Part shown: positions 1-64,000 of the stretch, one piece after another
Layout of the letters: each line of letters starts with the position of its first letter
How positions within the stretch are numbered: the first letter of the stretch is position 1
Source: Agromyces ramosus
Lineage (GTDB): Bacteria > Actinomycetota > Actinomycetes > Actinomycetales > Microbacteriaceae
Reading direction: 5' to 3'
DNA length: 64,000 nt
Assembly: GCF_004216665.1 (NCBI RefSeq)
Contig: NZ_SGWY01000002.1
Location: 968,685-1,032,684 of the forward strand
Translations under genes and position numbers: made by a program
The notes under the pieces: generated by a model
What the model saw: the letters and a program-made list of their open reading frames with translations, nothing else
Databases searched by the model: none
What the model was told of the DNA's origin: nothing

Positions 1-1
1 C

Positions 2-232
2 CTGAAGGACCGGGGGCCCTTCATCCGGGAGCACACGGCGACCGCCCTGAACTTCCAGATCACGATGGCGATCGCCTACGTGATCAGCTACGTCCTGTGG
101 CTGGCCGTCGTGGGCATCTTCCTCACGATCGCGATCGGCGTGGTCGTGATCGTGTTCAGCATCATCGCCGCGGTGAAGGCCAACCAGGGCCAGCTCTACA
201 CGTACCCGCTCTCGATCAAGTTCGTGAGCTGA
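2..232 (+). CDS. DUF4870 domain-containing membrane protein (C-terminal part, 5' cut by window)
   Basis: The reading frame is open from the window edge to a TGA at 230-232. The 76 visible residues read as a small membrane protein of the DUF4870 (Tic20-like) family: a charged stretch with REHT and ALNFQ, two hydrophobic helices (about residues 20-42 and 45-60 of the visible part), then a short KANQG and YPLSIKFV tail. The REHtxxALNFQ region and the YPLxIKFV ending are typical of the family. Its function is unknown. It converges on hemW with only a 6-bp gap. The true start lies outside the window. Confidence 0.8.
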   Translation: MKDRGPFIREHTATALNFQITMAIAYVISYVLWLAVVGIFLTIAIGVVVIVFSIIAAVKANQGQLYTYPLSIKFVS

Positions 233-238
233 TCGGGT

Positions 239-1465
239 TCACTCCTCCAGCAGGCGCCTGACGACGGCGTCCGCGAGCAGCCGCCCCCGCCTGGTGAGCG
301 TCAGCACACCGGCGAGGGCGGCTTTCGCGTCCACGAGGTCGTCGGCGATGAGGCCCGCGACCGCGTGCCGGCCTCCGACGTGCAGCGATGGGATCTCGAT
401 CCCGTCGCGGATGCGCGTGAGGAGCAGCACGCGCTCGGTCTCGCGCGTGGGATCGTCGAGGCGCTCGCGGCCGACCGCGGGCGAGAGGCCCGCGGTCACG
501 CGCTCGGCGTAGGCGGCCGGGTGCTTCGCGTTCCACCACCGCACGCCGCCGACGTGGCTGTGCGCCCCCGGGCCGACGCCCCACCAGTCGTCGCCGCGCC
601 AGTATCCGAGGTTGTGCCGGGATCGGTGCGCGGCATCCGTCGCCCAGTTGCTCACCTCGTACCACTCGTAGCCCGCGGCACCGAGGAGCTCGTCGGCCAG
701 CTCGTACATGTCGGCCTCGAGGTCGTCGGAGGGCTCGGCGAGCTCGCCGCGGCGGATCCGGCGAGCGAGGCTGGTGCCGTCCTCGACGATGAGGGCGTAG
801 GCGCTCACGTGGTCGGGCCGGTGCGCGACCACCGCCTCCACACTCCGCCGCCAGTCGGCGAGCGACTCCCCCGGCGTGCCGTAGATGAGGTCGAGGCTCA
901 CGTCGAGTCCCGCGTCGCGCGCCCAGCCGACGACGAACGGGATGCGGTCGGGGTCGTGCGTGCGATCGAGGGCGGCGAGCACGTGCGGCACGGCCGACTG
1001 CATGCCGAACGACACCCGCGTGAACCCGCCGTCGGCGAGGCGCCGCAGGTCGTCGGGGCCGACCGAGTCGGGGTTCGCCTCGGTGGTCACCTCGGCATCG
1101 GGTGCGAGCCCGAACTCGTCGCGTACGGCGGCGAGCATCCGCACGAGGTCGTCGGCCGGCAGCAGGGTCGGGGTCCCGCCGCCGAAGAAGACCGTGTCGG
1201 CCCGACGTGCGGGGACTCCGGATGCCTCGAGCACGCCCCGCGAGATCCGGATCTCGCCGATGGCATGATCGGCGTAGTCGACCTGGCGGGCGCCGCGGAG
1301 CTCCCCGGCGGTGTAGGTGTTGAAGTCGCAGTACCCGCAGCGGACGCGGCAGAAGGGCACGTGCACGTACACCCCGAACGCGCGGTCGGGCGCACCGTCG
1401 GCCGCCGAGGGCGGCAGCAGGCCGTCGAGCGGGGCGGGCTCGCCCAGCGGCAGGGCGGATGCCAC
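239..1465 (-). CDS. hemW: Radical SAM heme chaperone HemW
   Basis: 408 aa. HemW belongs to the HemN-like radical SAM family but acts in heme trafficking or insertion rather than as coproporphyrinogen dehydrogenase. The iron-sulfur motif CxxxCxYC is visible at Cys39, Cys43 and Cys46 (PFCRVRCGYC), followed by the GGGTPT S-adenosylmethionine-binding motif near residue 95 and a C-terminal HemN-type domain. The extra Cys that true HemN carries right after the cluster motif is absent (CGYCDF), which favours HemW. It is the last gene of a minus-strand lepA-DUF1990-hemW group and starts 3 bp after the DUF1990 stop. Older annotations may call it coproporphyrinogen III oxidase. Confidence 0.9.
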   Translation of the reverse strand: MASALPLGEPAPLDGLLPPSAADGAPDRAFGVYVHVPFCRVRCGYCDFNTYTAGELRGARQVDYADHAIGEIRISRGVLEASGVPARRADTVFFGGGTPTLLPADDLVRMLAAVRDEFGLAPDAEVTTEANPDSVGPDDLRRLADGGFTRVSFGMQSAVPHVLAALDRTHDPDRIPFVVGWARDAGLDVSLDLIYGTPGESLADWRRSVEAVVAHRPDHVSAYALIVEDGTSLARRIRRGELAEPSDDLEADMYELADELLGAAGYEWYEVSNWATDAAHRSRHNLGYWRGDDWWGVGPGAHSHVGGVRWWNAKHPAAYAERVTAGLSPAVGRERLDDPTRETERVLLLTRIRDGIEIPSLHVGGRHAVAGLIADDLVDAKAALAGVLTLTRRGRLLADAVVRRLLEE

Positions 1466-1468
1466 CGG

Positions 1469-2119
1469 CTACACGCCGCCCGCGGGGTGCAGCGCGCGGA
1501 GCTCGACGCGGGTGAGCTCGCGGCGCTTGCGGCGCTGGCGCGGCGCGCCGAGGCGATGGATGCCGCCCCGTGTGCCGAGGAGCGAGCGGATCGTGAGCCA
1601 CACGGTGTCGTCCTCGCGGTGCTCGAGGATGAACGACTCCTCGCCGCTCTCCGGACCCTCGGCGGTCGTGCCGTAGGCGAAGCCGATGCGGTCGGGCTCG
1701 TCGATGACGTACACGACGAGCACGGGTGTGTCGTGGGCGCGGAAACGCCCCCTGCGACGGAGGGTCGCCGTCACCCCGGCCGTGATGTAGGGCGTGCCGT
1801 CGGCGCCGAAGCGGTCCTCGGAGCGCGGCGCGGGCTGCTCGGCGAGCGGCATGCCCTCGGCGTCGTAGACGATGCCGGGGTACTGCGCACCCGTGCCTGC
1901 GGAGACGTCGACGACCTCGAACCCGGCGCCCTGCTGGACGCCCCAGGTCATGAGCGCCTCGGCGGCGCGATCGAAGCGCTCCTGCCCGCTGCCGAGGCGC
2001 ACCGAGTCCTCCGCCGGGCGGTAGCCCGCGGGCGGGTAGCGCAGCAGGTCGGGTGCGAGGGTCGCCCCGATGGCGCCATAGGTGACCGACTGGTCGGTGA
2101 AGGTGCTGCGTCGGGTCAT
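1469..2119 (-). CDS. DUF1990 family protein
   Basis: 216 aa, matching the usual length of the DUF1990 (YndJ/At2g37760-like) family. Recognisable segments are the N-terminal YGAIGAT, RYPPAGYRP with a following aromatic and charged stretch, the central FEVVDV, and a C-terminal region of the type IGFAYGTTAEGPESGEE followed by a hydrophobic strand. No catalytic role is established for the family. It has no signal peptide or membrane segment. It lies between lepA (stop 7 bp upstream) and hemW (start 3 bp downstream), so it is probably co-transcribed with both. The C-terminal tail is arginine-rich. Confidence 0.75.
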   Translation of the reverse strand: MTRRSTFTDQSVTYGAIGATLAPDLLRYPPAGYRPAEDSVRLGSGQERFDRAAEALMTWGVQQGAGFEVVDVSAGTGAQYPGIVYDAEGMPLAEQPAPRSEDRFGADGTPYITAGVTATLRRRGRFRAHDTPVLVVYVIDEPDRIGFAYGTTAEGPESGEESFILEHREDDTVWLTIRSLLGTRGGIHRLGAPRQRRKRRELTRVELRALHPAGGV

Positions 2120-2126
2120 CCGGTAC

Positions 2127-3983
2127 CTACTTCTTCGCGTCCTTCTTCTCGGTGTCGCCCGAGAGTGCGGCGATGAACGCCTCCTGGGGCACTTCGACGC
2201 GGCCCACCATCTTCATGCGCTTCTTGCCCTCCTTCTGCTTCTCGAGCAGCTTGCGCTTGCGGGTGATGTCGCCGCCGTAGCACTTGGCCAGGACGTCCTT
2301 GCGCATGGCGCGGATCGACTCGCGGGCGATGATGCGAGCGCCGATGGCCGCCTGGATCGGCACCTCGAACTGCTGGCGCGGGATGAGCTCCCGCAGCCGG
2401 CCGGTCATCAGCACCCCGTAGGCGTAGGCCTTGTCGCGGTGGACGATCGCGCTGAACGCGTCGACCTGCTCGCCCTGCAGCAGGATGTCGACCTTCACGA
2501 GGTCGGCGGCCTGGTCGCCCGTCGGCTCGTAGTCGAGGCTCGCGTAGCCGGCGGTCTTCGACTTCAGCTGGTCGAAGAAGTCGAACACGATCTCGCCGAG
2601 CGGCATGTTGTAGCGGATCTCCACGCGGTCCTCGCCGAGGTATTCCATGCCGAGCATGGTGCCGCGGCGCGACTGGCAGAGCTCCATGATCGTGCCCACG
2701 TAGTCTTTCGGTGCGAGGATCGCGGCGCGCACCATGGGCTCGCGCACCTCGGAGATCTTCGCGCCGGTCGGGAACTCGCTCGGGTTCGTGACCGTGACGG
2801 ACTTCTTGTCCTCCGTGGTGACCTCGTAGACCACCGACGGCGCCGTCGCGATGATGTCGAGCCCGAACTCGCGGCGCAGCCGCTCGGTGACGATCTCGAG
2901 GTGCAGCAGGCCGAGGAATCCGGCGCGGAAGCCGAAGCCGAGGGCGACCGAGGTCTCGGGCTCGTAGACGAGCGCCGCGTCCGAGAGCTTCAGCTTGTCG
3001 AGCGCCTCGCGGAGCTCGGGGTAGTCGCTGCCGTCGATCGGGTAGAGGCCCGAGAACACCATCGGCAACGGCTCGGTGTAGCCGGGGAGCGCCTCGGTGG
3101 CGGACTTCGCCGCAGTGGTGACCGTGTCGCCCACCTTGGACTGCCGCACGTCCTTCACGCCCGTGATGAGGTAGCCGACCTCGCCGACGCCGAGGCCCTT
3201 GGTGGGCGTGGGCTCGGGAGCGCTCACGCCGATCTCGAGGATCTCGTGGGTCGCCCGGGTCGACATCATCTGGATGCGCTCGCGCGGGTTCAGGTGTCCG
3301 TCGACCATGCGCACGTAGGTCACCACGCCGCGGTAGCTGTCGTAGACGGAGTCGAAGATCATGGCCCGCGCCGGGGCATCCGCTCGGCCGACCGGCGCCG
3401 GGATGCGCTCGACGACGCGGTCGAGGAGCTCCTCGACGCCGATGCCCGTCTTGCCCGAGACCCGCATCACGTCGTCGGGCGAGCCGCCGATGAGGTCGGC
3501 GAGCTCCTTCGCGTACTTCTCGGGCTCCGCCGCGGGCAGGTCGATCTTGTTGAGCACCGGGATGATCTCGAGGTCGTTCTCGAGGGCGAGATAGAGGTTC
3601 GCGAGGGTCTGCGCCTCGATGCCCTGCGCCGCGTCGACGAGCAGGATCGCGCCCTCGCAGGCGGCGAGGGAGCGGGAGACCTCGTAGCTGAAGTCGACGT
3701 GGCCCGGGGTGTCGATCATGTTCAGCGCGTACGACGTGTCGCCGACCTGCCATGGCATGCGCACGGCCTGGCTCTTGATGGTGATGCCGCGCTCGCGCTC
3801 GATGTCCATGCGGTCGAGGTACTGCGCCCGCATGTCCCGGTCGCTCACGACGCCGGTGATGCCGAGCATGCGGTCGGCGAGGGTCGACTTGCCGTGGTCG
3901 ATGTGCGCGATGATGCAGAAGTTGCGGATCAGCGCGGGGTCGGTGGCAGCGGGCACCGGAGGATTGGCGGCTCGAGGGGACAT
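2127..3983 (-). CDS. lepA: Elongation factor 4 (LepA) GTPase
   Basis: 618 aa, close to the usual 600. LepA is a translational GTPase that binds ribosomes and affects elongation or initiation under stress. G1 is AHIDHGKST at residues 26-34, G3 is DTPGH, G4 is NKID, and the LepA-specific C-terminal domain ends in a lysine-rich tail ([16 protein letters not shown]). I chose the ATG at 3983 (MSPRAANPP). The frame stays open further upstream, but that extension has no family similarity and would run into the divergent kinase promoter. It is the first gene of the lepA-DUF1990-hemW group and diverges from the histidine kinase at 4064, with an 80-bp spacer. Confidence 0.96.
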
Positions 3984-4048
3984 CCTGACGATTCTCCCAT
4001 GACTTCGCTTCCCACTTTCGACGGATGCCGCGTCGCCGGCGCCGGGGC

Positions 4049-4054
4049 TACGCT
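4049..4054 (+). promoter_or_regulatory. Candidate -10 element (TACGCT) of the kinase-regulator operon
   Basis: TACGCT fits the actinobacterial TANNNT -10 pattern and lies 9 bp before the kinase ATG, which would give a 5' leader of about 3 nt. No convincing -35 element is seen. nrdR and hisD have the same 9-bp spacing. Confidence 0.4.
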
Positions 4055-4063
4055 GACAGCACC

Positions 4064-5907: not shown

Positions 5908-5910
5908 CGG

Positions 5911-7783: not shown

Positions 7784-8044
7784 GTGGCAAACATCAAGTC
7801 GCAGATCAAGCGCATCCGCACCAACCTGAAGGCGCAGGAGCGCAACAAGGCCGTCAAGAGCGAGGTCAAGAGCGCCGTCCGCGCCGCGCGCGAGGCGATC
7901 GCCTCGGGCGACAAGGAGAAGGCGACGACCGCTCTCCGCGCCGCCACCCGCAAGCTCGACAAGGCCGCCAGCAAGGGCGTCATCCACAAGAACCAGGCCG
8001 CGAACCGCAAGTCGGCGATCGCGAAGCAGGTCGCTGCGCTCTGA
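7784..8044 (+). CDS. rpsT: 30S ribosomal protein S20 (bS20)
   Basis: 86 aa, the normal length. It starts at GTG ([11 protein letters not shown]) with the family-typical [11 protein letters not shown]-terminus, a basic helical body ([16 protein letters not shown]) and the ending [21 protein letters not shown]20 binds 16S rRNA and supports early 30S assembly. The gene is monocistronic: a candidate promoter and leader lie upstream, and a strong hairpin terminator starts 17 bp after the stop. It converges with holA. Confidence 0.98.
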
Positions 8045-8121: not shown

Positions 8122-9183
8122 TCAGGAGACGGTGCGCCCCCGCGCGGCGATGACGGCGACCAGGCGTTCGAGCGCGAACACGGGGTCGCGCTCGGCGCCC
8201 TTGACGGCGGCATCCGTCGCGGCGAGCGACTCGATCGCCCGCTGCAGGCCCTCGTCGGTCCAGCCGGCGAGGTCGCGGCGGGCGCGGTCGACCTGCCAGG
8301 GCGCCAGCCCGAGGGAGGATGCCACTTGCGGGCCGCCGCCGCGCACCCCCGACACCTTCGCCATCGTGCGCACCTTCATCGCGAACGCGGCGACCATGGG
8401 CACGGGATCGGCGCCGCTTTCGAGCGCATGGCGCAGGGCGATGAGCGCCTCGCCGTGACGGCCGGCGATGGCCGCGTCGGCCACCGCGAAGGCGTTGGTC
8501 TCGACGCGGCCGCCGTAGTACCGCGCCACGACGGCTTCGGTGATCTCGCCCGGCGCGTCGGCGATGAGCTGCCGAGACGCGGCGGACAGCTCCGCGAGGT
8601 CGTCGGCGAATGCGGCGACGAGCGCCCGGAGCGCCCGCGGGTGGATCGAACGCCCGGCGGCGCGGAACTCGGCCGCGGCGAAGTCCTGCTTCTCGACGTC
8701 CTTCTTCAGTTCGGCGCAGACGATCTCGACCCCGCCGCCGACTCCCGCGCGGATCGCGTCGAGGAGCTTCTTGCCGCGCTGCCCGCCCGCGTGCCGGAGC
8801 ACCAGCGTGGTGGACTCGGCGGTCTGCTCGAGGTACTCGAGCGCGTCGATGAGGAAGTCGTCGCTCGCCCGCTCGACCGCGCCGACGCGGATGAGGCGCG
8901 GCTCGCCGAACAGCGACGGACTCGCGAGCGTGAGGAGCTCGCCCCGCCGGTAGTCGTCGGCCTCGAGATCGCTCACCTCGAGCGCCGGGTCCTCGGATCG
9001 GAGGAAGTCGCGCAGCATGCCGCTGGCCCGCTCTGCCAGTACGGTCTCAGGTCCGGTGATGAGCACCACCGGTGCGGGACGCACCTCGTTCCAGGCGAGC
9101 TGCGGAATCGCGGCCGCCTTCGCGCGCGTGGGTGCGCCGGCCCGTGACGCGCCGGATCGCACCGCTCCTGTTCGTGCCGCCAA
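8122..9183 (-). CDS. holA: DNA polymerase III subunit delta
   Basis: 353 aa. HolA is the clamp-loader delta subunit that opens the sliding clamp. The N-terminus carries the PVVLITGPE strand that replaces the P-loop (no functional Walker A), followed by the DLEADDYRRGELLTLASPSLFGEPRLI region typical of delta (quoted here in part). Middle and C-terminal helical domains follow. The only plausible start is TTG at 9183 or a GTG about seven codons later; I took the TTG because it keeps the frame close to comEC (stop at 9208). It is the last gene of comEA-comEC-holA, the usual actinobacterial order, and its end converges on rpsT. Confidence 0.9.
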   Translation of the reverse strand: MAARTGAVRSGASRAGAPTRAKAAAIPQLAWNEVRPAPVVLITGPETVLAERASGMLRDFLRSEDPALEVSDLEADDYRRGELLTLASPSLFGEPRLIRVGAVERASDDFLIDALEYLEQTAESTTLVLRHAGGQRGKKLLDAIRAGVGGGVEIVCAELKKDVEKQDFAAAEFRAAGRSIHPRALRALVAAFADDLAELSAASRQLIADAPGEITEAVVARYYGGRVETNAFAVADAAIAGRHGEALIALRHALESGADPVPMVAAFAMKVRTMAKVSGVRGGGPQVASSLGLAPWQVDRARRDLAGWTDEGLQRAIESLAATDAAVKGAERDPVFALERLVAVIAARGRTVS

Positions 9184-9207: not shown

Positions 9208-11550
9208 CTACGGGCGGGGACCGACCTCGCCCCGCTCCGACCAGAGCCGGAACCCGCCCTCGCCGTCGGCGGTGAGCGTCGCCGTACCCGACCGATCCGT
9301 CCGCACCGCGGTCGTGCCGGACTCGAGCAGGAGGCCGAGCAGGCGATCGGTCGGATGTCCGTAGCCGTTGTCGGCGCCGACCCCGATGACCCCGACCGTC
9401 GCGTCGAGCTCCTCGTACAGCCGTTCGCTCTGGTCGGCGGATCCGTGGTGCGCCACCTTCACGAGGTCGACCGGACCCAGCTCGACCGAGGCGAGCATCC
9501 GCTCCTGGGCACCCTCGCCGAGGTCGCCCAGGAACGCGGCGCGGTACGTCGGAGCATCGAGGGCGATCACGACGCTGGCATCGTTGCCCGGGGCGGCCCG
9601 AGGCTTCGGCCAGACCACGCGCCAACCGGCGTCGCCGAGTCGCCCCTGGTGGCCGGCCACGACCTCGACGGCCTCCGCTCCGCCGCGCACGAGCGGACCC
9701 AGCACGCGATCCGAGCGCCCGCCGTCGAGCGGGCCGTGGATGACGGTGTCGACGCGGCCCACCACGGCGGCCGCCCCGCCGGCGTGGTCGGCGTCCCAGT
9801 GCGTCACGACGAGCAGGTCGATGCGGTCGACCCCGAGCAGTGCGAGGCAGCGCTCGAGCGCTGCCGGTTCGGGGCCGGTGTCGATGAGCGCAGTGGCCTG
9901 CGCCGACCGCACGACGACCGCATCGCCCTGTCCGATGTCGCACGCGGCGACATCCCAGCGACCCGGGCGCGTCGCGCCGATCACCGCGGGTGCTCCGAGC
10001 CCGCTGCCGATCGGCACGGCGAGGCACACCGCGAGCAGGGCCGCTGCGACCGCACGCGCCCGAGGATGCCGCCGACCCGTCATGGCCAGGCCGAGGGCGA
10101 GCGCCGTGCAGCCTGCGAGCAGCAGCGCACCGGCGGCATCCGGAAGCCATGGCAACCGGCCGCCCGGGAGCGCGGCGGCACCGTGCGCCACGAGCGCGAT
10201 CCACGACGCGGGCAGCCACGCGACCTGCAGGAGGCCCACGCCGACCGACGGCAGCACCGGCAGGACGAGGCAGCCGAGGAGTCCGACGACCGTGGCCACG
10301 GGAGCCGCCGGCGCTGCGAGCAGGTTGGAGGGCACGCCGTACAGGGCGATCGCCGGGTCGAGCAGGATGAGGATGGGCTGGCACGCGAGCTGGGCTGAGA
10401 GCGGCACCGCGAGGACGACCGCGAGCGGCGTCGGCATCACCCGGGCGAGCCGGCCGGCGAGCGGGCCTGCCAGGAGCAGCAGTCCTGCCGTCGCCGCGGC
10501 GGACAGCGCGAACCCGTAGTCGCGGGCGAGCCACGGGTCGAACGCGAGCAGTCCGATGACGGCGACGGCGAGGGCCGCGATGCCGCCGCCCGGGCGTCCC
10601 ACCGCGATGGCCACGAGCACCGCGATGGCCATCGCACCCGCGCGGACCACGCTGGGCTGGGGCGTCACGAGCACGACGAAGCCGCACAGTGCGGCGAGGG
10701 CCGCGACGACGCGCGTTCCCCTGCCGAGTCGGCAGAGGGCGGCGAGGGCGAACGCGGCGGCGGTGACGATGGCGCAGTTCGCTCCGGATACCGCGGTGAG
10801 GTGGCTGAGCGAGCTCGCCCGCATCGCCGCGTCGAGCTCCTCGTCGACCCCGCTCGTGTCGCCGATGGCGAGTCCGGGCACGAGTGCGCCGCCATCGCCA
10901 CCGAGTCCGCCTGCGGCACCTGCGAAGCCGGTGCGCAGGCCGACCGCCCAGCCGAGCCAGGCGGGGGGCACCGCGGCGACCCGTACGTCGCCTGCGGGGC
11001 GCAGCTCGAACCCGCTCTGCTCGGCACCGGGCAGCGGCGTGACGCGTGCGGCGAACGCGAGGCGCGCGCCGATCGAGAGGGCCGTGGGCGGGAGGTCGAC
11101 CGTGGTCGTGATCGGAACGGCGACCGCCGGCCGCGCGTCGACGGCGACGAGGCGGGCGTCGACGCGGAACGACGGCGCCTGCGCCGGATCACCCCACGCC
11201 GGCGGGCGGATCGGCCGCGGAGCCGAGACCACCTCGACGACGACGTCGGCGACACGATGCGAGTCCGCCACGACGGCGAGTGGGGACTCCGCTCGTTGCT
11301 GCAGCCCGACGGCCGTGGTTGCGGAGACGAGGCCCGCCGCGGCGAGCAGCACGAGCGCGATGGCCGCCGCGGAGGTCCAGCGAGCTGCGCGGCTCGATCC
11401 GATCAGGACCGCGGCGAGCGTCGCGGTGCCCAGCCCCCAGATCGCCCACGCCACGACGGCGGCGGGGACTCCCACATCCGGTGCCGCCACCGTGCACCAG
11501 GCGGTCGCCCACGCCGCCCCGGCAGGGGCGAGCAGCCGCAGGTCGCGCAC
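9208..11550 (-). CDS. comEC: ComEC/Rec2 family DNA-uptake channel protein
   Basis: 780 aa with a GTG start. A membrane part of about ten helices (the Competence domain, about 220-490, including the SHLTAVSGANCAIV motif) is followed by a C-terminal metallo-beta-lactamase-fold domain with the metal motif HWDADHAGG. In transformable bacteria ComEC conducts single-stranded DNA across the membrane and the C-terminal domain is a candidate nuclease. The protein is full length and looks intact. It starts immediately after the comEA stop (11551-11553). No type IV pilus genes are in the window, so competence of this organism cannot be judged here. Confidence 0.92.
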   Translation of the reverse strand: MRDLRLLAPAGAAWATAWCTVAAPDVGVPAAVVAWAIWGLGTATLAAVLIGSSRAARWTSAAAIALVLLAAAGLVSATTAVGLQQRAESPLAVVADSHRVADVVVEVVSAPRPIRPPAWGDPAQAPSFRVDARLVAVDARPAVAVPITTTVDLPPTALSIGARLAFAARVTPLPGAEQSGFELRPAGDVRVAAVPPAWLGWAVGLRTGFAGAAGGLGGDGGALVPGLAIGDTSGVDEELDAAMRASSLSHLTAVSGANCAIVTAAAFALAALCRLGRGTRVVAALAALCGFVVLVTPQPSVVRAGAMAIAVLVAIAVGRPGGGIAALAVAVIGLLAFDPWLARDYGFALSAAATAGLLLLAGPLAGRLARVMPTPLAVVLAVPLSAQLACQPILILLDPAIALYGVPSNLLAAPAAPVATVVGLLGCLVLPVLPSVGVGLLQVAWLPASWIALVAHGAAALPGGRLPWLPDAAGALLLAGCTALALGLAMTGRRHPRARAVAAALLAVCLAVPIGSGLGAPAVIGATRPGRWDVAACDIGQGDAVVVRSAQATALIDTGPEPAALERCLALLGVDRIDLLVVTHWDADHAGGAAAVVGRVDTVIHGPLDGGRSDRVLGPLVRGGAEAVEVVAGHQGRLGDAGWRVVWPKPRAAPGNDASVVIALDAPTYRAAFLGDLGEGAQERMLASVELGPVDLVKVAHHGSADQSERLYEELDATVGVIGVGADNGYGHPTDRLLGLLLESGTTAVRTDRSGTATLTADGEGGFRLWSERGEVGPRP

Positions 11551-12246
11551 TCAGGGCGCGACCTTGTCGGCGAGCCCCGAGAAGACCGTGTCGCCGATCC
11601 CGGCGACCTCGAGCAGCTGGTCGATGCTCGTGAACGGCCCGTTGGCCTCGCGCCAGTCGATGATGCGCTGGGCGAGGGCCGGACCGATGCGCGGCAGCGT
11701 GTCGAGCGCGGCCACGTCGGCCGTGTTCAGGTGCACGGTTCCGTCGGCGGTCGCACCGCTGGAAGCGCCCGCACCGCCGGTGGCGGGCGGCGGAGCCTGG
11801 CCGACGGCGAGCACCATGAGCTGCTCGCCGTCGACCACCGGTCGTGCCAGGTTCACTCCGGCAGGATCCGCCTCGGCGGTGAACCCGCCGGCCGCGGCCA
11901 CGGCGTCGACGACGCGGGCGCCCGCGGCCAGCTCGACGAGCCCCGGACGCGTCACCGCCCCCAGCACGTGCACCAGCAGCGGCGGCGTCGCGACGCGGGG
12001 CGAGCCGCTCGCCCCGCCATCGGAGGCCGCTGCCACGCCCAGGTCGGTCGCGGGGGCACCGCCACCGGCGACGATCGTGCCCTGCGCTCCACCACCGGTC
12101 GCCGCGGACGAGACGAGGGCGGCGATGGCCACCGCGGCGATGAACAGCACGACGGCCGCGCCGACCGCGATGCGGACGCGGGGCGTCGCCCGGCGTGCGA
12201 CGGGGTCGAGCGCGTCGAACGGGTCGGCAACGGGGGTCGCGGGCAT
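11551..12246 (-). CDS. comEA: ComEA family DNA-binding competence protein
   Basis: 231 aa. Domains in order: cytoplasmic tail, one membrane helix (about 27-50), an Ala/Gly-rich linker, an SLBB-type strand region (PLLVHVLGAVTRPGLVEL), and a C-terminal helix-hairpin-helix pair (VHLNTADVAALDTLPRIG and the following ITDWREANGPF-like helix). The HhH pair binds double-stranded DNA outside the membrane and passes it to ComEC, which starts directly at its stop. The ATG at 12246 is 6 bp after a TAGCGT -10 hexamer, so the transcript is probably leaderless. Confidence 0.9.
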   Translation of the reverse strand: MPATPVADPFDALDPVARRATPRVRIAVGAAVVLFIAAVAIAALVSSAATGGGAQGTIVAGGGAPATDLGVAAASDGGASGSPRVATPPLLVHVLGAVTRPGLVELAAGARVVDAVAAAGGFTAEADPAGVNLARPVVDGEQLMVLAVGQAPPPATGGAGASSGATADGTVHLNTADVAALDTLPRIGPALAQRIIDWREANGPFTSIDQLLEVAGIGDTVFSGLADKVAP

Positions 12247-15017: not shown

Positions 15018-16496
15018 TCACTCCAGCGGTGTGGATGCCGCGCCGAGCACCGCGAGCAGGGCCCGCGCCTTCACCCGGGTCTCCTCGATCTCCTCCGCCG
15101 CGACCGAGAGTGCGGTGATGCCGCCGCCCGTGCCGATGCTCGCCCCGTCGGGTGTGAGCACGATCGATCGGATGACCATCGCGAGGTCTGCGCTGCCGTC
15201 GATCCCGAGGTAGCCGAACGCTCCCGAGTAGATGCCGCGCGGGCCCTCCTCGAGCTCGTGCAGGATCGTCATCGCGCTGCGCTTCGGCGCACCCGTCATC
15301 GACCCGGCCGGGAACGCCGCCTGCACGACGTCGAGCACGGTCAGCGGATGCCGGATCCGGGCCCGCACGGTCGAGACGAGCTGGTGCACGTGGGCGTACT
15401 CCTCCACGTCGAGCAGGCTCGGAACGCTGACCGTGCCGAGCTCGGCGATGCGTCCGAGGTCGTTGCGCATGAGGTCGACGATCATGAGGTTCTCGGCGCG
15501 CTCCTTCTCGCTCTCGAGGAGCTCGCGCCGCAGCTCGGCGTCCCGTCGCGGATCCGACCCGCGCGGGCGCGTGCCCTTCATCGGCTTCGTCGACACGATG
15601 CCGTCGGCGTCGACCTGCAGGAACTGCTCTGGCGAGGCGCTGAGCAGGGCGACGTCGCCGAATCGCACGTATCCGCCGTGATGGCTGGGACTCGACCCGC
15701 GCAGCGCGAGGTATGCCGCGGCGGGATCGGGGTGCACCTCGACGTCGATGCGATTCGTGAGGCACAGCTGGTAGGCGTCGCCGCGCACGATCGCCTCCTG
15801 GCAGCGCGCGATGAGCTCGGCGTACCGCCGCGCATCGTGTCGCCATCGCGCCGGCGCCGCAGCGGTGTGCGCCGTCGGGCCCGCGACCGGCGACGCAGAG
15901 GGCGCGGATGCCGACGACGCGGATGCCGCGGGCACCTGCTGCAGCGCCGCCGCGAGCTCGTCCGCCCAACGCTCCCCCTCGTCGCCGACCGGCTCCGCCG
16001 ACGCGAGCCACACGAGTCGCACGGTGCGGGCGCCGTGGTCGAACACGACGGCCCGGTCGACGAAGAGGAACGCGGCATCCGGTGTCTCGGCCGGCGAGGT
16101 CGGCACGTCGTCGAGGGCGGCGCCGAGCTCGTACCCGAACCACCCGAACCAGCCGAGCGGGCCGCCGTCGCCCGCGTCCGGCGCGAGCGCTTCCGACGAC
16201 CCCTCGGCGCGGCGCAGTGGCAGCCGCTCGGCCAGCACGTCGAAGACCGATCCCGCGACCGTCGACCCGGCGGCATCGACGCCGAGCGGCGTCGAGCGCG
16301 TGACGGTTCCGTGCGCGACGTCGGCCGTGACGAGCTCGCTCGCCCGGTGGGCCGCGGCCATGACGCTCACCCCGGTCGCGGCATCCGCGCCGCCGTCGAG
16401 CCACACGGCGTACGCGGCATCCGAATACCGGGCCGTGAAGACGGCCTCGGGGTCGCGCCACCCCTCGAGCAGGCGTGAGCGGATGCGGCGTGGCAT
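15018..16496 (-). CDS. pabB: Aminodeoxychorismate synthase component I (chorismate-binding)
   Basis: 492 aa. PabB converts chorismate to 4-amino-4-deoxychorismate on the path to folate, using ammonia from a glutamine amidotransferase encoded elsewhere. The chorismate-binding core (about 230-490) shows GDAYQLCLTNRI, KPMKGTRPRG, ERAENLMIVDLMRNDLGRI and FPAGSMTGAPK. The Lys in PMKGT is the nucleophile that marks PabB; anthranilate synthase TrpE has Ala there (PIAGT). That decides between the two. The variable N-terminal half is Ala-rich. The ATG at 16496 is 6 bp from a TAGGCT hexamer, suggesting a leaderless message. Confidence 0.85.
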   Translation of the reverse strand: MPRRIRSRLLEGWRDPEAVFTARYSDAAYAVWLDGGADAATGVSVMAAAHRASELVTADVAHGTVTRSTPLGVDAAGSTVAGSVFDVLAERLPLRRAEGSSEALAPDAGDGGPLGWFGWFGYELGAALDDVPTSPAETPDAAFLFVDRAVVFDHGARTVRLVWLASAEPVGDEGERWADELAAALQQVPAASASSASAPSASPVAGPTAHTAAAPARWRHDARRYAELIARCQEAIVRGDAYQLCLTNRIDVEVHPDPAAAYLALRGSSPSHHGGYVRFGDVALLSASPEQFLQVDADGIVSTKPMKGTRPRGSDPRRDAELRRELLESEKERAENLMIVDLMRNDLGRIAELGTVSVPSLLDVEEYAHVHQLVSTVRARIRHPLTVLDVVQAAFPAGSMTGAPKRSAMTILHELEEGPRGIYSGAFGYLGIDGSADLAMVIRSIVLTPDGASIGTGGGITALSVAAEEIEETRVKARALLAVLGAASTPLE

Positions 16497-27842: not shown

Positions 27843-27926
27843 GGCTGCCTCACTCCAAGCACCGGGCGGAGCCCCGGATGCCGGAGTTCAAGCCAAACAC
27901 CATTCCCAGTCGAGGGCAAACGCGTT

Positions 27927-44362: not shown

Positions 44363-44382
44363 GCGGATGCCGCGGCATCCGC
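44363..44382. repeat. Perfect 20-bp palindrome between murG and murC
   Basis: GCGGATGCCG joined to its exact reverse complement, with no loop. It consists of two inverted copies of the GGATGCC heptamer that recurs through the window. No T-run follows, so it does not look like an ordinary terminator. Confidence 0.85.
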
Positions 44383-44392: not shown

Positions 44393-45493
44393 TTACGCGC
44401 CTTGCGCGGTGTCGCCGGCACCCCCGCCGAGTGCGGCGTCGACGAGGGCGATCATGCGGTCGGTGCCGTCGCGGTGGCCGACGGATGCAGCGGCGGCCGC
44501 CATCCGTGCGACGCGATCGCGATCGCCGAGCAGCGGCACCAGCTCGCCCCGCACCCAGTCGGGCACGAAGTCGGCGTCGTCGACGAGGACGCCCCCGCCC
44601 GCCGCCACCACGTCGGCCGCGTTGAAGCGCTGCTCGCCGTTGCCCACCGGGTACGGCACGTACACGGCCGGGATGCCGAGCGCGGCGAGCTCGCTCACGG
44701 TGGCGGCGCCGGCGCGCGACACTGCGGCGTCCGCGACCGCGAGTGCGAGGTCCATGCGGTCGGCGTACTCGGCCATGCGGTAGTCGGGGATGCCGGGATC
44801 GTCGACGTCGGACGCCGCGCCCGTGATGTGCAGCACCTGCCAGCCCGCTGCGGTGAGGTCGCCGGCGGTCTCGACCATCGTGCGGTTGATGCGCCGTGCG
44901 CCCAGCGAACCGCCCGTCGCGAGCAGCACCGGTCGCGCCGGGTCCAGTCCGAAGAAGCGGGCCGCCTCGTCGCGGAGCGCCGCCCGGTCGAGCGTCTCGA
45001 TCTCGCGGCGCAGCGGCATGCCCACGACCTCGGCACGGCGCAGCGGCGTGCCGCCGAAGGCCACGCCGACGGCGGCGGCCCAGCGGGAGCCGAGCCGGTT
45101 CGCGAGTCCCGGCCTGGCATTGGCCTCGTGGATCGCGACCGGGACGTGCGCTCGACGCGCGGCGAGGTACGCCGGCGTCGCGACGTAGCCGCCGAAGCCG
45201 ACGACGACGTCGACGCCGCGCTCGGCGATGATCGTCGACACGTCGTCGATCGACCCGCGGAACCGGGCGGGGAAGGCCACGGCCGCACGGTTCGGGCGAC
45301 GCGGGAACGGCACCTTCGCGATCGTGAGGAGCTCGTAGCCGCGGGCGGGCACGAGTCGCGACTCCAGGCCCTCGGCGGTGCCGAGCACGAGCACCACGTC
45401 GTCGGGCCGCCGCTCGCGCAGGCGATCGGCGACGGCGAGCAGGGGGTTCACATGGCCGGCCGTTCCGCCGCCGGCCAGGAGGTAGACGGTCAT
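44393..45493 (-). CDS. murG: Lipid II synthase MurG (GlcNAc transferase)
   Basis: 366 aa GT-B glycosyltransferase, peripheral on the inner membrane face, converting lipid I to lipid II. The N-terminal [16 protein letters not shown] glycine-rich loop, the [16 protein letters not shown] and [12 protein letters not shown] segments and the C-terminal donor site ([24 protein letters not shown], in part) are present. The ATG at 45493 overlaps the ftsW stop by 4 bp. The stop is followed by the 80-bp spacer before murC. Confidence 0.95.
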
Positions 45494-46743
45494 CGCGCCG
45501 GTCGCCCCGCCGCTCGTGCCGCAGCCCGCGCCTCGGCGCGCGCGGCAGCACGCGTCGCCGCCTCGGGATCGCGGGCGACCGAGAGCACCACGCCGATCGC
45601 GAAGAGCGTCGTGAGCAGGGCGGTGCCGCCCGCCGAGACGAGGGGCAACGGCACGCCGAGGACGGGGAAGACTCCGAGCACGACTCCGATATTGACACAT
45701 GCCTGGCCGACGACCCAGACGAGCACCGCCGCGGTGACGGCCCTGGCGAACGGGGTGCGGGCCGCGCGCAGCACCCTCGCGAACGCGACCGCGAGCACGA
45801 CGAACAGCCCGATCACGACGATCGCGCCGATGAGGCCGAGCTCCTCGCCGATGATCGCGAAGATGAAGTCGTTGTCGGCCGCGGGCAGCCACGACCACTT
45901 CGCCGTCGAGTTGCCGAGCCCCACGCCGAGGATGCCGCCGTTCGCGAGCGCGAACCGGCCGTGCTGGATCTGCCAGCAGTCCTCGTTGTCGAACCGGGTG
46001 CAGTTCTCCTGCAGGAACGCGGTGATGCGCCGCATCCGGCTGTCGCTGGAGACGGCGACGATCACGAAGACGGCCGAGCCCAGCAGCACCGGGGGCAGCA
46101 GCAGCCGGAACCTCACCCCGATCAGGAAGAGGGCGCCGAGCAGCATCGCGCCCATGATCATCACGGTGCCGAGGTCGCCGCCGAGGAGCACGAGGCCGAT
46201 CGCTCCGCCGCCGACGAGGAGGATCGGCAGGATGCCGCGCGTGAAGTCGCCGAGCAGCGCCTCCTTCTTCGTGACGATGAGCCCGAGCCAGATCACGAGC
46301 GCGACCTTGATGAGCTCCGACGGCTGGAACTGCACGGGCCCGATCGCGAGCCAGTTGGTATTGCCGCCGACGGTGATGCCCAGCGGAGTCGCCACCACGA
46401 GCAGCTGGAGGGCGCACGCGACGATGAGCAGCGGCCACGCGACCGTCATCCACATCCGCTCGGGCATCCGGCTCGCGATGAGCATGATGGGCACGCCGAA
46501 GAGCGCGTACAGGCCCTGTCGGGTCGCCTGCACGAAGAATCCGCCGTCCTCGAGGTTCGACTCGACCGACGACGACGAGAGCACCATGACGAGCCCGAAC
46601 ACCACGAGGAAGAGCGTCGTGCCGAGCAGGAGGAAGTAGTCCTTCGACTCGACGCGGAAGACGCGTCCGAGCCGGATGCGGGCGGTGGAGACGCCCGCTG
46701 GATCAGCCTTCGGGGGTCGGGCCGTGCGGGGCGGAGTCGCCAT
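45490..46743 (-). CDS. ftsW: Septal peptidoglycan polymerase FtsW
   Basis: 417 aa, about ten membrane helices, a SEDS glycosyltransferase that polymerises lipid II with FtsI. Typical segments: [23 protein letters not shown] (in part), the [24 protein letters not shown] region with the essential acidic residues, and a C-terminal [19 protein letters not shown] chose the ATG at 46743, which has GGAGGTGAGG just upstream. This makes it overlap the murD 3' end by 41 bp; no start codon lies between that ATG and the first conserved residues. Confidence 0.93.
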
Positions 46744-48259
46744 CCGCCTCACCTCCCAGCCTCGCTCTGACCGCCTCGTGGAATCGCCGGCCCCGATCGG
46801 CGTAGTCGGCGAACTGGTCCATCGACGCCGCGGCCGGCGCGAGGAGCACCGTGTCCCCCGCCTCGGCGACGGACGCCGCCAGCGCGACCGCCTCGGGCAT
46901 CACCGTTTCAGTGTCGTCGGTCACCACCTCGAACAGGGGCAGTTCGGGCGCGTGTCGCCGGAACGCCGCGACGAGGGCGGCACGGTCGACGCCGATGACG
47001 ATCGCGGCGCGCAGCCGGCCGACGTGCGCGGCGACCAATGCGTCCGCGTCGACGCCCTTCAGCAGTCCGCCGACGATCCACACCACCTGCCCGAAGGCGC
47101 GCAGCGACGCCTCGGCGGCGTGCGGATTCGTGGCCTTCGAGTCGTCGATCCAGCGGACGCCGCCGGCCACCGCCACCTGCTCGATCCGATGCGCGTCGAG
47201 GCGGAAGTCGCCGAGCGCATCGTGGATGACCCCCACCGGGACGCCGTACGACCGCACGAGCGCCGACGCCGCGAGGATGTTCTGCACCACGTGCGGAGCG
47301 CCGAGGCCCCGCGGCTCGAGCTCGTCGACGGTGATGATCTCCAGTGCCGCGGTGCGTCGCTCATCGAGGAACGCGCGATCGCAGAGGATCCCCTCGACCA
47401 CGCCGAAGTCGCTCGGGCCCGGCACGTCGAGCCCGAATCCGATCGCGCGGGCGCCCTCCTCGACGTCGGCGTCCTCCACCATGCGCATGGTGGCCTCGTC
47501 GGCGCGGTTGTAGACGCACGCCACCTTGGTGTTCTCGTACACGGTGGCCTTGGCGGCCCGGTAGGCCTCTGGCGATCCGTGCCAGTCGAGGTGGTCGTCG
47601 GCGACGTTCAGCACGACGCTGGCCCACGGATGCAGGGCACCGGGTCCCGTCCTCGGCAGGTGGTGCAACTGGTAGCTCGAGAGCTCGACGACGAGGACGT
47701 CGAAACCGCCCGGATCGCGCACGGCGTCGAGCACCGGCACGCCGATGTTGCCGCACGGCGCGGCGCGGAGGCCGTTGGCGGCCAGGAAGGTCGCGGCCAG
47801 CTGCACCGTGGTCGTCTTGCCGTTCGTGCCGGTGACGAGGATCCACTCGGCGGCGCTCACCTTGTCCCGCACCCGCCAGGCGAGCTCGATGTCGCCCCAC
47901 ACGGCGACGCCCTCCGCATCGGCCCACTCGAGCACCGCGTGATCGGGGTGGAACCCCGGCGAGGCCACGACGAGCTCGGGTGCGAACGCGACCAGCCCCT
48001 CGGGCACCGCGTCGAGCGGATGCCGCAGCAGCCGGGCTCCGATCACCTCGAGGATCCGCGCCCGATCGTCGTCGACCTCGGGTGCGAGCACGAGCACGTC
48101 GGCGCCGAGCTCGGTGAGCGTGTCAGCGACGGCGAAGCCGGTGACGCCGAGGCCGAGCACCGCGACGCGGAGCCCGCGCCAGTCGGCGTTCCAGCTCGTG
48201 AGCGTCTCGAGCCGGGCGGCGACGGCCGAGGCATCCGGGTCGGTCAACTCTGCAGCCAT
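46703..48259 (-). CDS. murD: UDP-N-acetylmuramoylalanine-D-glutamate ligase
   Basis: 518 aa, adds D-Glu to UDP-MurNAc-L-Ala. N-terminal domain with [21 protein letters not shown] loop [13 protein letters not shown] (about 147-159), a central [14 protein letters not shown] motif and the C-terminal [17 protein letters not shown]. The ATG at 48259 overlaps the mraY stop by 16 bp. The last 41 bp overlap ftsW. It is slightly longer than E. coli MurD (438 aa), mostly in loops of the C-terminal domain and its tail. Confidence 0.95.
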
Positions 48260-55770: not shown

Positions 55771-55771
55771 A

Positions 55772-58083: not shown

Positions 58084-58089
58084 GCGGCG

Positions 58090-58428: not shown

Positions 58429-58434
58429 GTGACC

Positions 58435-58440: not shown

Positions 58441-58599
58441 CCAGACGCACGCGGCCCTGCGGAAGCGGTGGCCCCCGCGGCGTGGCGACGGGTTCCCGGA
58501 CGGAGTCGGGAGACGCGCGGCGAGGTCGTTGACTCGACCCATGCCGTGTGCGACGTTGGCCACGGACGAGGAGGTCCGACGCCGGCCTGAGGGGGAACG

Positions 58600-59841: not shown

Positions 59842-59946
59842 GCCCGCGATTCCGCGCGGCGCCGGGACGCGGCATCCGTCATCACGAAGCCATTGCGATC
59901 TCGCCGTTCTGCGGCGTTTAGTCGGCTTGCGGCATGTGCGCCTTCG

Positions 59947-59952
59947 TAGACT
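59947..59952 (+). promoter_or_regulatory. -10 element (TAGACT) of the PASTA kinase gene, leaderless layout
   Basis: TAGACT, 6 bases (CGAAGG), then the GTG at 59959. A GGCATCC heptamer lies upstream at 59871-59877 in the same 117-bp spacer. Confidence 0.55.
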
Positions 59953-59958
59953 CGAAGG

Positions 59959-61881: not shown

Positions 61882-61892
61882 CCCGGGCGGCG

Positions 61893-61927
61893 GTCGCGGG
61901 GCATCGGTGCGCCGGACGCCCCGCGAC
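61893..61927. terminator. Possible bidirectional hairpin between the kinase and DAHP synthase genes
   Basis: GTCGCGGGGC (61893-61902) and its exact complement GCCCCGCGAC (61918-61927) form a 10-bp stem around 15 nt in the 51-bp gap between convergent genes. Neither side has a T-run. Confidence 0.4.
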
Positions 61928-61932
61928 GTCGC

Positions 61933-63303
61933 TCAGCGGGCGGTGAGCTCCTCGGCCACCAGGAAGGCGAGCTCGAGCGACTGCATGTGGTTGAGGCGCG
62001 GGTCGCAGAGCGATTCGTATCGCGTGGCGAGGGTCTCCTCGTCGATGTGCTCGGAGCCCCCGAGGCACTCGGTCACGTCGTCGCCGGTGAGCTCGACGTG
62101 GATGCCGCCGGGGTACGTGCCCGCGGCCCGGTGCGCCTCGAAGAACCCGCGCACCTCGTCGACCACGTCGTCGAAGCGCCGGGTCTTGTAGCCGTTCGGC
62201 GTCGTGTACCCGTTGCCGTGCATGGGATCGGTGACCCAGAGCGGATTCGCATCACTGCGCTTGATGGCCTCGAGCAGCGGCGGCAGCGCCTCGCGGATCC
62301 TGCCCGCGCCCATGCGCGTGATGAACGTGAGGCGGCCCGGCTCGCGGTTCGGATCGAGCTTCTCGACGAGCTCGAGCATGGTCTCGGGCGTCGTCGACGG
62401 GCCGAGCTTCACGCCGATCGGGTTGCGCACCCGCGAGAGGAAGTCGACGTGCGCGCCGTCGAGGTCGCGCGTGCGCTCGCCGATCCAGATGAAGTGCGAC
62501 GACGTGTCGTATGGCGTGCCGGTGCGCGAGTCGATCCGCGTCATCGGCCGCTCGTAGTCCATGAGGAGGCCCTCGTGGCCGGTGTAGAACTCGGTGTGCT
62601 TGAGCGCCTCGAAGTCGGCGCCGCACGCCTCCATGAACTTGATGGCGCGGTCGATCTCACGGGCGAGGGACTCGTAGCGCGCGTTCGCCGGATTCACCGA
62701 GAAGCCCTGGTTCCACGAGTGCACCTGGCGGAGGTCGGCGAACCCGCCCTGGGTGAACGCGCGGATCAGGTTCAGCGTGGAGGCGGCCATGTGGTAGCCG
62801 CGCACGAGACGCGCCGGGTCGGCCGCGCGCGACTCCGCCGTGAAGTCGTAGCCGTTCACGATGTCGCCCCGGTAGGCGGGTAGCGTGACGTCGCCGCGGG
62901 TCTCGGTGTCGCTCGAGCGGGGCTTTGCGAACTGGCCCGCCATCCGGCCCATCTTCACGACGGGCATCGACGCGCCGTACGTGAGCACGACCGCCATCTG
63001 GAGCACCGTCTTCACGCGATTGCGGATCTGGTCGGCCGTCGCGCCCGCGAAGGTCTCGGCGCAGTCGCCGCCCTGCAGCAGGAACGCCTCGCCGCGCGAG
63101 GCCGCCGCGAGTCGCGTGCGCAGCATGTCGACCTCGCCGGCGAACACGAGCGGCGGCAGCGTCGCGAGCTCGGCGGATGCCGCGTGCGCGGCGTCGGGGT
63201 CGGGCCACTGGGGCTGCTGCTTGATCGGCAGCGTGCGCCAATAGTCGAGGCCGTCGATCACGGAGGGATCTGCGTTGACGACGGGCTCGACGAGCTGTAC
63301 CAC
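61933..63303 (-). CDS. 3-deoxy-7-phosphoheptulonate synthase, class II
   Basis: 456 aa. The first enzyme of the shikimate pathway, condensing phosphoenolpyruvate and erythrose 4-phosphate. Class II (plant/mycobacterial AroG) features: LPIKQQPQWPD near the start, the metal-site motif LLQGGDCAETF (about 85-95), KMGRMAGQFAKPRSS, YDTSSHFIWIGERTR and DPMHGNGYTTPNGYKTR. I chose the GTG at 63303 (VVQLVEPVVNADP) with AGGACA about 8 bp upstream; an extension to 63360 is open but unlike the family. It matches Rv2178c in position. Confidence 0.93.
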   Translation of the reverse strand: MVQLVEPVVNADPSVIDGLDYWRTLPIKQQPQWPDPDAAHAASAELATLPPLVFAGEVDMLRTRLAAASRGEAFLLQGGDCAETFAGATADQIRNRVKTVLQMAVVLTYGASMPVVKMGRMAGQFAKPRSSDTETRGDVTLPAYRGDIVNGYDFTAESRAADPARLVRGYHMAASTLNLIRAFTQGGFADLRQVHSWNQGFSVNPANARYESLAREIDRAIKFMEACGADFEALKHTEFYTGHEGLLMDYERPMTRIDSRTGTPYDTSSHFIWIGERTRDLDGAHVDFLSRVRNPIGVKLGPSTTPETMLELVEKLDPNREPGRLTFITRMGAGRIREALPPLLEAIKRSDANPLWVTDPMHGNGYTTPNGYKTRRFDDVVDEVRGFFEAHRAAGTYPGGIHVELTGDDVTECLGGSEHIDEETLATRYESLCDPRLNHMQSLELAFLVAEELTAR

Positions 63304-63383
63304 GGGAGTGTCCTGAGAGTTCGGGCGCTGGGCGCCGGGAATGGGAACGCGGCGCCGCACGTCGCGCCGCCGCTGTTTCGAGC

Positions 63384-64000
63384 CTACCCCGAAGGCGTGG
63401 CGCGTTGCTCCCGCACGGAGCTCGCGTAGACGTCGACGTACGGCTGGCCGCTCAGTGCGCGGAGTTCGTAGACGAGCTCGTCGGTCACGGAGCGCAACAC
63501 GAACCGGTCGCCCTCGAGTCCCTGGAAACGCGTGAAGTCGAGCGGCTCGCCGATGATGATACCGATGCGGCGCACCTTCGGCAGCCTGGTGCCGATCGGC
63601 ATGACCTTCTCCGTGCCGATCATCGCGACCGGCAGCACGGGGACGCCCGCCTCGAGCACCATGCGGGCGACGCCCGTGCGACCCCGGTACAGCCGGGCGT
63701 CGGGGCTGCGCGTGCCCTCGGGGTAGATGCCGAGGATGCCGCCCTCGCCGAGCACCCGCAGGCCGGTCTCGAGGGAGGCCTCCGACGCCTTGCCGCCCGA
63801 GCGGTCGATGGGCAGCTGGCCCGCGGCCTGGAAGAAGACGCGCGTCGCCCAGCCCTTCAGGCCCTTGCCCGTGAAGTACTCGCTCTTCGCGAGGAAGACC
63901 ACCGGGCGATCGACGACGAGCGGCAGGAAGATCGAGTCGATGAACGAGAGGTGGTTCGAGGCGAGCACGACCGCGCCATCCCTGGGCACGTGCTCCAGCC
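63384..64000 (-). CDS. plsC: 1-acylglycerol-3-phosphate acyltransferase (5' cut by window)
   Basis: At least 205 aa; the frame runs off the window edge, so the N-terminus is missing. Motif I is NHLSFID, with the His and Asp of the HX4D catalytic pair; motif III appears as GIYPEGTRSPDARLYRGRTG and motif IV as VLPVAMIGT. The family transfers an acyl chain to lysophosphatidate in phospholipid synthesis; some members act in mannosylated lipid synthesis. M. tuberculosis Rv2182c is in the same relative place. An in-frame GTG at 63989 exists, but motif I would then be only about 12 residues from the start, so the real start is upstream. Confidence 0.88.
   Translation of the reverse strand, partial: LEHVPRDGAVVLASNHLSFIDSIFLPLVVDRPVVFLAKSEYFTGKGLKGWATRVFFQAAGQLPIDRSGGKASEASLETGLRVLGEGGILGIYPEGTRSPDARLYRGRTGVARMVLEAGVPVLPVAMIGTEKVMPIGTRLPKVRRIGIIIGEPLDFTRFQGLEGDRFVLRSVTDELVYELRALSGQPYVDVYASSVREQRATPSG

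Follow-up and report, generated by a model that had tools for sequence, protein, structure and literature searches.

A dense and variably spelled heptamer of Agromyces ramosus and other Microbacteriaceae as a candidate Chi-like signal

Why does one asymmetric seven-letter word recur more than once per kilobase on both strands of a bacterial chromosome? The question arises from a 64,000-nt stretch of the Agromyces ramosus assembly GCF_004216665.1 (contig NZ_SGWY01000002.1, positions 968,685 to 1,032,684; here the window), in which GGATGCC and its complement GGCATCC occur 52 and 40 times on the plus strand, 92 copies together; we tentatively favor the answer that the word is a Chi-like signal whose candidate reader is the helicase-nuclease AdnAB. 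A first-pass annotation of this DNA had counted about 87 copies by eye (48 + 39), and the enrichment it described stands, with the figure corrected. Its composition estimate of about 15 copies agrees with a Markov expectation of 15.3 at order 1; orders 2 to 5 give 18.6, 23.8, 46.0, and 71.7, the last two being high because the sub-words themselves mostly derive from the motif, which leaves a weak excess at order 5 (92 vs 71.7). At orders 1 and 3, GGATGCC is the highest-z 7-mer of the window. The whole-genome count that the annotation had proposed yields 5,251 copies in 3.84 Mb (2633 + 2618, about 1.4 per kb) vs 344 (186 + 158) of the reversed word. In a 424-kb sample made up of the window and 18 further 20-kb stretches of the genome, 553 copies are found where 119 are expected at order 2, and CGGATGCCG occurs 287 times where 27 are expected. 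Over-representation against oligonucleotide composition is a property used to recognize Chi, and high copy number on both strands is one used to recognize uptake sequences; GGATGCC has both. The C and G flanks noted earlier also hold, the extended form being CGGATGCCGCG around the core GGATGCC, with flank frequencies of.73 (C),.71 (G),.71 (C), and.62 (G) in the 553 copies.

Codon usage is the plainest explanation for such a word in coding DNA. In the window, whose genes are simple codon-model calls from an imperfect caller that missed some genes, at least 52 of the 92 copies place GAT before GCC (27) or GCA before TCC (25), in line with the earlier claim of uncommon codons in about 53 of 87 copies, and 18 more read GGC-ATC-C, which are ordinary codons. 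GAT makes up 166 of 1268 Asp codons (13%), yet 27 of 38 in the context xxG_GCC; GCA makes up 181 of 2847 Ala codons (6%), yet 25 of 35 in xxG_TCC. When codons were swapped only among positions that agree in their amino acid and in the bases just before and after, the coding part of the 424-kb sample gave 191±8 copies compared to 467 observed. Codon choice plus codon-junction context is thereby ruled out as a full explanation, and the claim of a recognized word, for which the annotation had named a context-preserving shuffle as the refuting test, survives it. The same shuffle leaves an excess of GGATGCC in two other genomes (749 vs 247±10 in G227 and 111 vs 39±4 in G106) and of GGATGCT in G085 and G148 together (148 vs 22±3), while words one letter off mostly lie near expectation, with GGATGTC (130 vs 97) and GGATGCT (57 vs 34) mildly high in A. 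ramosus. Copies also occur outside called genes, as the annotation had said with examples that are confirmed, but the 11 of 92 counted there overstate the truly intergenic ones because the caller missed frames: 45930, 46230, and 46463 fall in a missed open frame (45490-46752, minus strand), and 42551 is covered once a called gene is given its longer frame. Density in the A. ramosus sample is 1.28 per kb within called genes vs 1.48 between them (68 of 553 copies), the latter figure being soft for the same reason, and the between-gene density is the lower one in G227 (1.41 vs 1.92 per kb) and G106 (1.55 vs 2.19).

A word without function could also arise from GGACGCC if mutation or repair were biased and codon preference amplified the effect, an option that the annotation had kept open. 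GGACGCC/GGCGTCC does occur in the window, as stated there, although its example positions shift from 18163 and 26609 to 18161 and 26610; the 29 copies compare with expectations of 46.1, 29.3, and 23.3 (orders 1, 2, and 3). The depletion count proposed at the time shows GGACGCC below shuffle expectation in A. ramosus coding DNA (148 vs 228), and A. ramosus GGACGCC sites align to GGATGCC in 14 of the 120 cases compared across seven relatives, both as a mutational origin would have it. However, the words at lost GGATGCC sites are scattered (GCATGCC, CGACGCC, GGGTGCC, AGATGCC, GAATGCC), and GGACGCC figures in the nine-word lists of just two comparisons, G142 (2/50) and G194 (2/19); the excess survives the junction-preserving shuffle and reaches into the flanking bases; and a single C-to-T bias does not yield the spellings GGATCC or GGAGGCGCGG met in relatives. 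Because GGACGCC is rare at lost orthologous sites, we do not regard it as the main source and consider a purely mutational origin very unlikely. As a separate observation, the context-preserving shuffle also shows A. ramosus coding DNA to be depleted in CGCGCGC (605 vs 914) and in several words with GGAC.

Comparison with related genera, also proposed in the annotation, places the word in a broader setting. In keeping with the genus, FtsZ matches that of Agromyces subbeticus at 92% identity. Across 299 Microbacteriaceae genomes including A. ramosus, GGATGCC density spans about 0.04 to 1.9 copies per kb, and genomes of small size are word-poor; other families of the order lie at about 0.05 to 0.5 per kb, and g88 of family f4 lies at 0.39-0.68. 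Within genus g85 alone (149 genomes), counts go from 434 copies in 2.4 Mb up to 9,877 in 4.4 Mb. Ten of 11 named Microbacterium loci have a 2.5- to 7.9-fold excess, and the eleventh, from M. oxydans (L017), has none (1.1-fold). A further record called a Microbacterium plasmid (L211, NZ_CP072877.1, 465 kb) is motif-rich, with 57 copies vs 16.3 in 45 kb; it carries ftsZ-sepF and cell-wall genes and therefore may be a chromosome piece.

In GGATGCC-poor Microbacteriaceae, the spelling varies by lineage, even inside one genus. Genus g2 includes genomes dominated by GGATGCT (4,020 vs 2,103 GGATGCC in G085; 3,234 vs 1,415 in G148), genomes with both in similar numbers (G199, G244), and one with mainly GGATGCC (G001). 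Genus g85 includes G484 with GCAGCATCC (28 vs 1.2 expected), G626 and G713, in which GGATGCTG exceeds GGATGCC (1,625 vs 1,468 and 1,611 vs 1,488), G612 with 1,971 GGATGCTG and 3,484 GGATGCC, and several GGATGCC-rich species that also hold more than 1,200 GGATGCTG. GGATGCG is enriched in G073 (59 vs 19.6), and GGATCC is enriched in G164 of genus g85 (118 vs 39.3, both strands counted). All five g35 genomes carry 1,494-1,745 sites of CGGATCCG and all five g36 genomes 842-1,378 copies of GGAGGCGCGG, vs 23-529 and 17-157, respectively, in the 15 other genomes compared; in G035, two stretches share 30 dispersed copies of GGAGGCGCGG, and a third lacks it. The C, T, and G spellings have the GGATGC core in common, giving dialects around a constant core as in uptake sequences. 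GGATCC and GGAGGCGCGG do not keep it; these two may belong to the same system as GGATGCC, judging by their resemblance to it and by their replacing it. Dialect does not explain all motif-poor genomes, since six of them (G033, G014, G016, G031, G068, G045) showed no clear replacement word in 40 kb each. The enriched words of G051 were rejected as a dialect, being mostly tandem repeats on one contig; the stretch G051:C2:1-20000 (L113) holds dense tandem repeats with GAGGAGCC near its positions 1-170 and 3800-4020. Enrichment of GGATCC was also seen in an actinomycete metagenome-assembled genome locus (L015, 78 vs 34.0) and a Leucobacter locus (L021, 50 vs 25.0), so that this spelling may be wider.

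Individual sites turn over while copy number stays. Within the cell-wall cluster, seven congeners retain 17/48, 21/50, 19/46, 22/50, 15/47, 19/48, and 3/19 of the A. ramosus sites, while control 7-mers containing a single A and a single T are retained at 25-33%. At orthologous sites, a comparison suggested by the annotation, retention of the word is thus slightly above control in six congeners and below it in G194. Between g2 genomes, GGATGCC stands opposite GGATGCT at 4 of 16 aligned sites (G001 to G148) and 4 of 15 (G199 to G244).

We scored GGATGCC, which may not be the chromosome spelling of Curtobacterium, M. foliorum, M. paraoxydans, or M. nematophilum, in 14 Microbacterium phages. Six are small, at about 17.4 kb each (Efeko, Noelani, Quaker, Naby, VitulaEligans, Hulk), and eight are larger (Min1, SanaSana, Clayda5, SansAfet, Quenya, MementoMori with its first 50 kb, Kauala, Luna18). 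The small phages carry 0.92-1.32 copies per kb (122 vs 20.7 at order 2; in coding DNA, 112 vs 52.4 by a conservative shuffle), whereas the larger ones carry 0.14-0.66 (139 vs 92.8; coding, 122 vs 92.8). No recombinase is annotated in the six small phages, and none appeared in protein scans, which covered ten Noelani and three Naby proteins only. Among the larger phages, Min1 encodes RecE-like (E 3e-11) and RecT-like (E 2.3e-5) proteins, and the other seven have an annotated exonuclease, accompanied by a Holliday-junction resolvase in SanaSana, Clayda5, SansAfet, and Quenya, a RecA-like recombinase in Kauala and Luna18, and ERF in MementoMori. The word is therefore over-represented where recombinases were not found, although the small phages are one family. 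According to an excerpt of PMC3784561, Chi is over-represented in lambdoid phages without recombinases, a pattern that our contrast between small and larger phages repeats. Thousands of copies across the family's genomes, spelling that changes between species, and density in some small phages together suggest a signal read by the host's DNA-handling machinery. Among control Arthrobacter phages, GGATGCC occurs 0 times (3.3 expected) in the small phage Yank and 14 times (9.7) in Galaxy. The small Curtobacterium phage Barebow has no GGATGCC excess (5 vs 4.4); it has GGATCC, maybe not its host's spelling, at 21 sites (coding, 20 vs 12.3±2.5, reached by 0 of 200 shuffles), and GGATCC is absent from Buldak, a larger Curtobacterium phage (0 vs 37.9, both strands counted). 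Two side observations concern the phages themselves. GGATCC is strongly avoided, as for a restriction target, in six of the eight larger Microbacterium phages, in Buldak, and in the small phages (0 vs 46.8 in MementoMori; loci L208, L209, L227, L228, L233, L235, L230, and, for the small phages, L210 and L212-L216). The terminase of the Exiguobacterium phage phiExGM16 (PP475795.1) is 74.6% identical to that of the small Microbacterium phages, and its stated host looks doubtful.

We prefer a Chi-like role because the word is kept in the chromosome, is unpolarized, is respelled between close species, and is common to phages without known recombination genes. As a candidate mechanism, AdnAB would enter from a broken or linear DNA end and process it and, on meeting the word, would switch from degradation to recombination-promoting resection. 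Weak genome-wide selection would keep thousands of copies in whatever synonymous codons permit, small phages dependent on host recombination would keep the word too, and, were the reader to change its specificity, the genome would be free to drift toward another spelling. Abundance, codon-context excess, strand symmetry, dialects, turnover, low density at low GC, the phage contrast, and helicase-nuclease genes in the panel are what we observe; from these we infer that selection causes the abundance and that AdnAB recognizes the word and alters resection. Two adjacent A. ramosus genes match the PDB chains 6ppj_A and 6ppr_B, which we take to be mycobacterial AdnAB. PF12705 matches occur in all 36 genomes of a mixed panel, twice or more in 35, and as pairs about 3.2-3.8 kb apart in A. 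ramosus, G106, G484, G227, G148, and G034; open reading frames and Walker motifs were located in the AdnAB stretches of G106, G484, and G164. Presence of a PDDEXK_1 helicase-nuclease, at 36 of 36, does not discriminate motif-rich genomes. An excerpt of PMC4824097 calls the response of AdnAB to Chi unknown.

Like Chi of RecBCD and AddAB, GGATGCC is a short G-containing word that is over-represented in the chromosome. It may also, as Chi is, be rarer in acquired DNA: windows below 66% GC, presumed to include such DNA, hold 0.30 vs 1.35 copies per kb in A. ramosus and 0.93 vs 2.03 in G227. The two lowest densities of the A. ramosus sample, 0.75 and 0.80 per kb, come from two stretches of about 67% GC (G000:C1:1200001-1220000 and C2:900001-920000; L085 and L095) that are possibly acquired. 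The likeness extends to phages without recombinases, as in the PMC3784561 excerpt, and to spelling variants between species, as described in part of PMC8022716. GGATGCC differs in being denser (about 1.4 per kb vs one per 5 kb for E. coli Chi in the same part of PMC8022716), in being unpolarized in the genome tested, in having one palindromic spelling, GGATCC, and in belonging to a lineage with an AdnAB-like enzyme and not RecBCD or AddAB. A wider picture, possible but held with more doubt, is that of a family-wide, unpolarized AdnAB-type recombination signal whose spelling switches with its reader, with recombinase-less phages following the host spelling and dialects marking self DNA and limiting gene exchange.

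Several findings weigh against the Chi-like reading. Genomes in which no word was found carry the helicase-nuclease as well, and GGATCC, as a palindrome, fits a directional signal badly. In G227, the only closed genome tested (dnaA at 2.79 Mb, terminus assumed opposite), there is no leading-strand polarity: 437 sampled copies are leading and 418 lagging, a fraction of.511 vs.512±.042 for composition-matched words, and a GC-skew proxy in A. ramosus gives.557 vs.517±.050. Orientation in the small phages (44 forward, 78 reverse) is no more biased than that of A. ramosus coding copies (181/467 sense). The strand symmetry reported by the annotation thus holds in its proposed leading/lagging comparison, and a replication-oriented segregation motif is ruled out, there being no origin-to-terminus skew; KOPS-type segregation motifs are strongly skewed from origin to terminus. 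Since strand polarity is one published Chi criterion (PMC8022716, in part) and fails in the genome tested, we claim a Chi-like way of working and stop short of calling the word an established Chi. On the phage side, the six small phages form one family with about three diverged lineages, so that a rank test p of 0.0012 overstates independence, and a DNA polymerase is likewise encoded by all but two of the eight larger phages, which confounds host replication with host recombination. MementoMori is enriched (33 vs 14.8) despite its RecE and ERF genes, recalling a class of phages with a recombinase and without a RecBCD inhibitor (PMC3784561, excerpt), and the match of phage and host dialects rests on phage DNA, the chromosomes of the Min1 and Barebow hosts lying outside the comparison.

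Strand symmetry is what one would expect of a DNA uptake sequence, the lead given by the annotation, in which a receptor prefers word-bearing fragments during natural transformation and recombination drives copy number and dialects as in Neisseriaceae. The lead draws on several of our results: the density resembles that of known uptake sequences, dialects share a constant start, site retention among congeners is modest, ComEC and ComEA lie in the window, and most pairs closer than 20 nt are inverted (GGATGCC...GGCATCC; 10 of 15 in A. ramosus, 14 of 21 in G227). Regular spacing is rejected, gaps between copies being Poisson. Natural transformation has been published for two Microbacteriaceae (PMC11577799, in part), but both have genomes smaller than 2 Mb by that source, and small genomes of the family are word-poor, those two species themselves being outside the sample. 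Moreover, ComEC (PF03772) is found in all 36 panel genomes, motif-rich or motif-poor, and thus fails as a discriminator, and host-like density in small phages is not readily explained. The likeness to Neisseriaceae and Pasteurellaceae uptake sequences lies in thousands of copies (about 1900-3269 per genome in several Neisseriaceae dialects; PMC3630211, excerpt) on both strands, dialects around a constant core, and inverted pairs; the differences are a Gram-positive lineage, enrichment in small phages, and an uptake bias that is here only a candidate. We regard this reading as rather unlikely, ranking second to the Chi-like one. We know of no uptake sequence in a Gram-positive family, and this would be the first.

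Alternatively, the word may be a binding or modification site of another host protein (a nucleoid protein, orphan methyltransferase, or topoisomerase), useful to small phages that rely on host replication. Abundance throughout the family, the existence of dialects, and the excess in small phages that lack a polymerase gene would all fit, as would an Lsr2-like protein encoded by Noelani and some others. No candidate protein was found, however, and Min1, which lacks an annotated polymerase, is poor in GGATGCC (16 vs 12.8), though this may not be its host's word. HIP1 of cyanobacteria is a comparable case, a very abundant palindromic word of unsettled function, possibly a protein binding or modification site; GGATGCC is also very abundant genome-wide but asymmetric, palindromic only in its GGATCC spelling. 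Such a site seems to us about as unlikely as an uptake sequence, and these two readings are the chief rivals of the Chi-like one.

We found no literature account of a GGATGCC-type word in Microbacteriaceae or Actinobacteria, in a search with subscription journals and preprints mostly outside it and GGATGCC mentions judged by titles among the matches listed, and for an over-represented Chi motif in Actinobacteria only a Proteobacteria paper matched; the earlier "no published description" stands to that extent, though unread GGATGCC literature could hold a mention. The word lends itself to testing, with copies in the thousands, more than one natural spelling, and a laboratory host, Microbacterium foliorum NRRL B-24224, from which many phages are in culture.

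The window copies and related features are collected in the table. All ten coding and five intergenic example copies of the annotation lie where it placed them, and Pfam matches agree with its naming of comEA and comEC. From gene order and start sequences, we take the genes on either side of the perfect inverted pair to be murC-like and murG-like.

Table. Copies of the word and related features in the window
Feature	Position	Strand	Basis or remark
GGATGCC copies, part 1	1220, 1457, 1558, 4023, 5047, 5909, 8317, 10064, 12681, 14067, 15033, 15346, 15906, 15921, 17055, 17265, 17616, 18976	+	word count
GGATGCC copies, part 2	19822, 21754, 23077, 24642, 25900, 26508, 27876, 30155, 32001, 34918, 35281, 35398, 35861, 36669, 37265, 37560, 38272	+	word count
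GGATGCC copies, part 3	43395, 43830, 44365, 44671, 44788, 45930, 46230, 48018, 49911, 51865, 53130, 54307, 55057, 60846, 62100, 63175, 63734	+	word count
GGCATCC copies, part 1	632, 3375, 5329, 5415, 8209, 10135, 12699, 13225, 13437, 13924, 16074, 16380, 16416, 16492, 16707, 19865, 21366, 23380, 23811, 26353	read on +	word count
GGCATCC copies, part 2	29002, 30551, 33362, 34118, 37537, 38555, 39795, 40302, 42095, 42551, 44374, 46463, 48230, 50679, 52043, 52735, 55853, 58219, 59871, 60793	read on +	word count
Perfect inverted pair of extended word, GCGGATGCCGCGGCATCCGC	44363..44382		between two cell-wall genes
Word copy outside called genes	4023..4029	+	simple gene calls
Word copy outside called genes	27876..27882	+	simple gene calls
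Word copy outside called genes	59871..59877	-	simple gene calls
Two direct copies 15 nt apart in one gene, coding strand GCA-TCC	15906..15927	+	codon reading
comEC-like gene	9208..11550	-	Pfam Competence PF03772, E 3.4e-40; candidate part under the uptake reading only
comEA-like gene	11551..12246	-	Pfam HHH_3 and SLBB; candidate part under the uptake reading only

A tRNA-Pro(cgg) at 8589-8686 faces the end region of a minus-strand gene; it is placed between two called genes, 7784-8044 and 8122-9018, of which it overlaps the second on the other strand.

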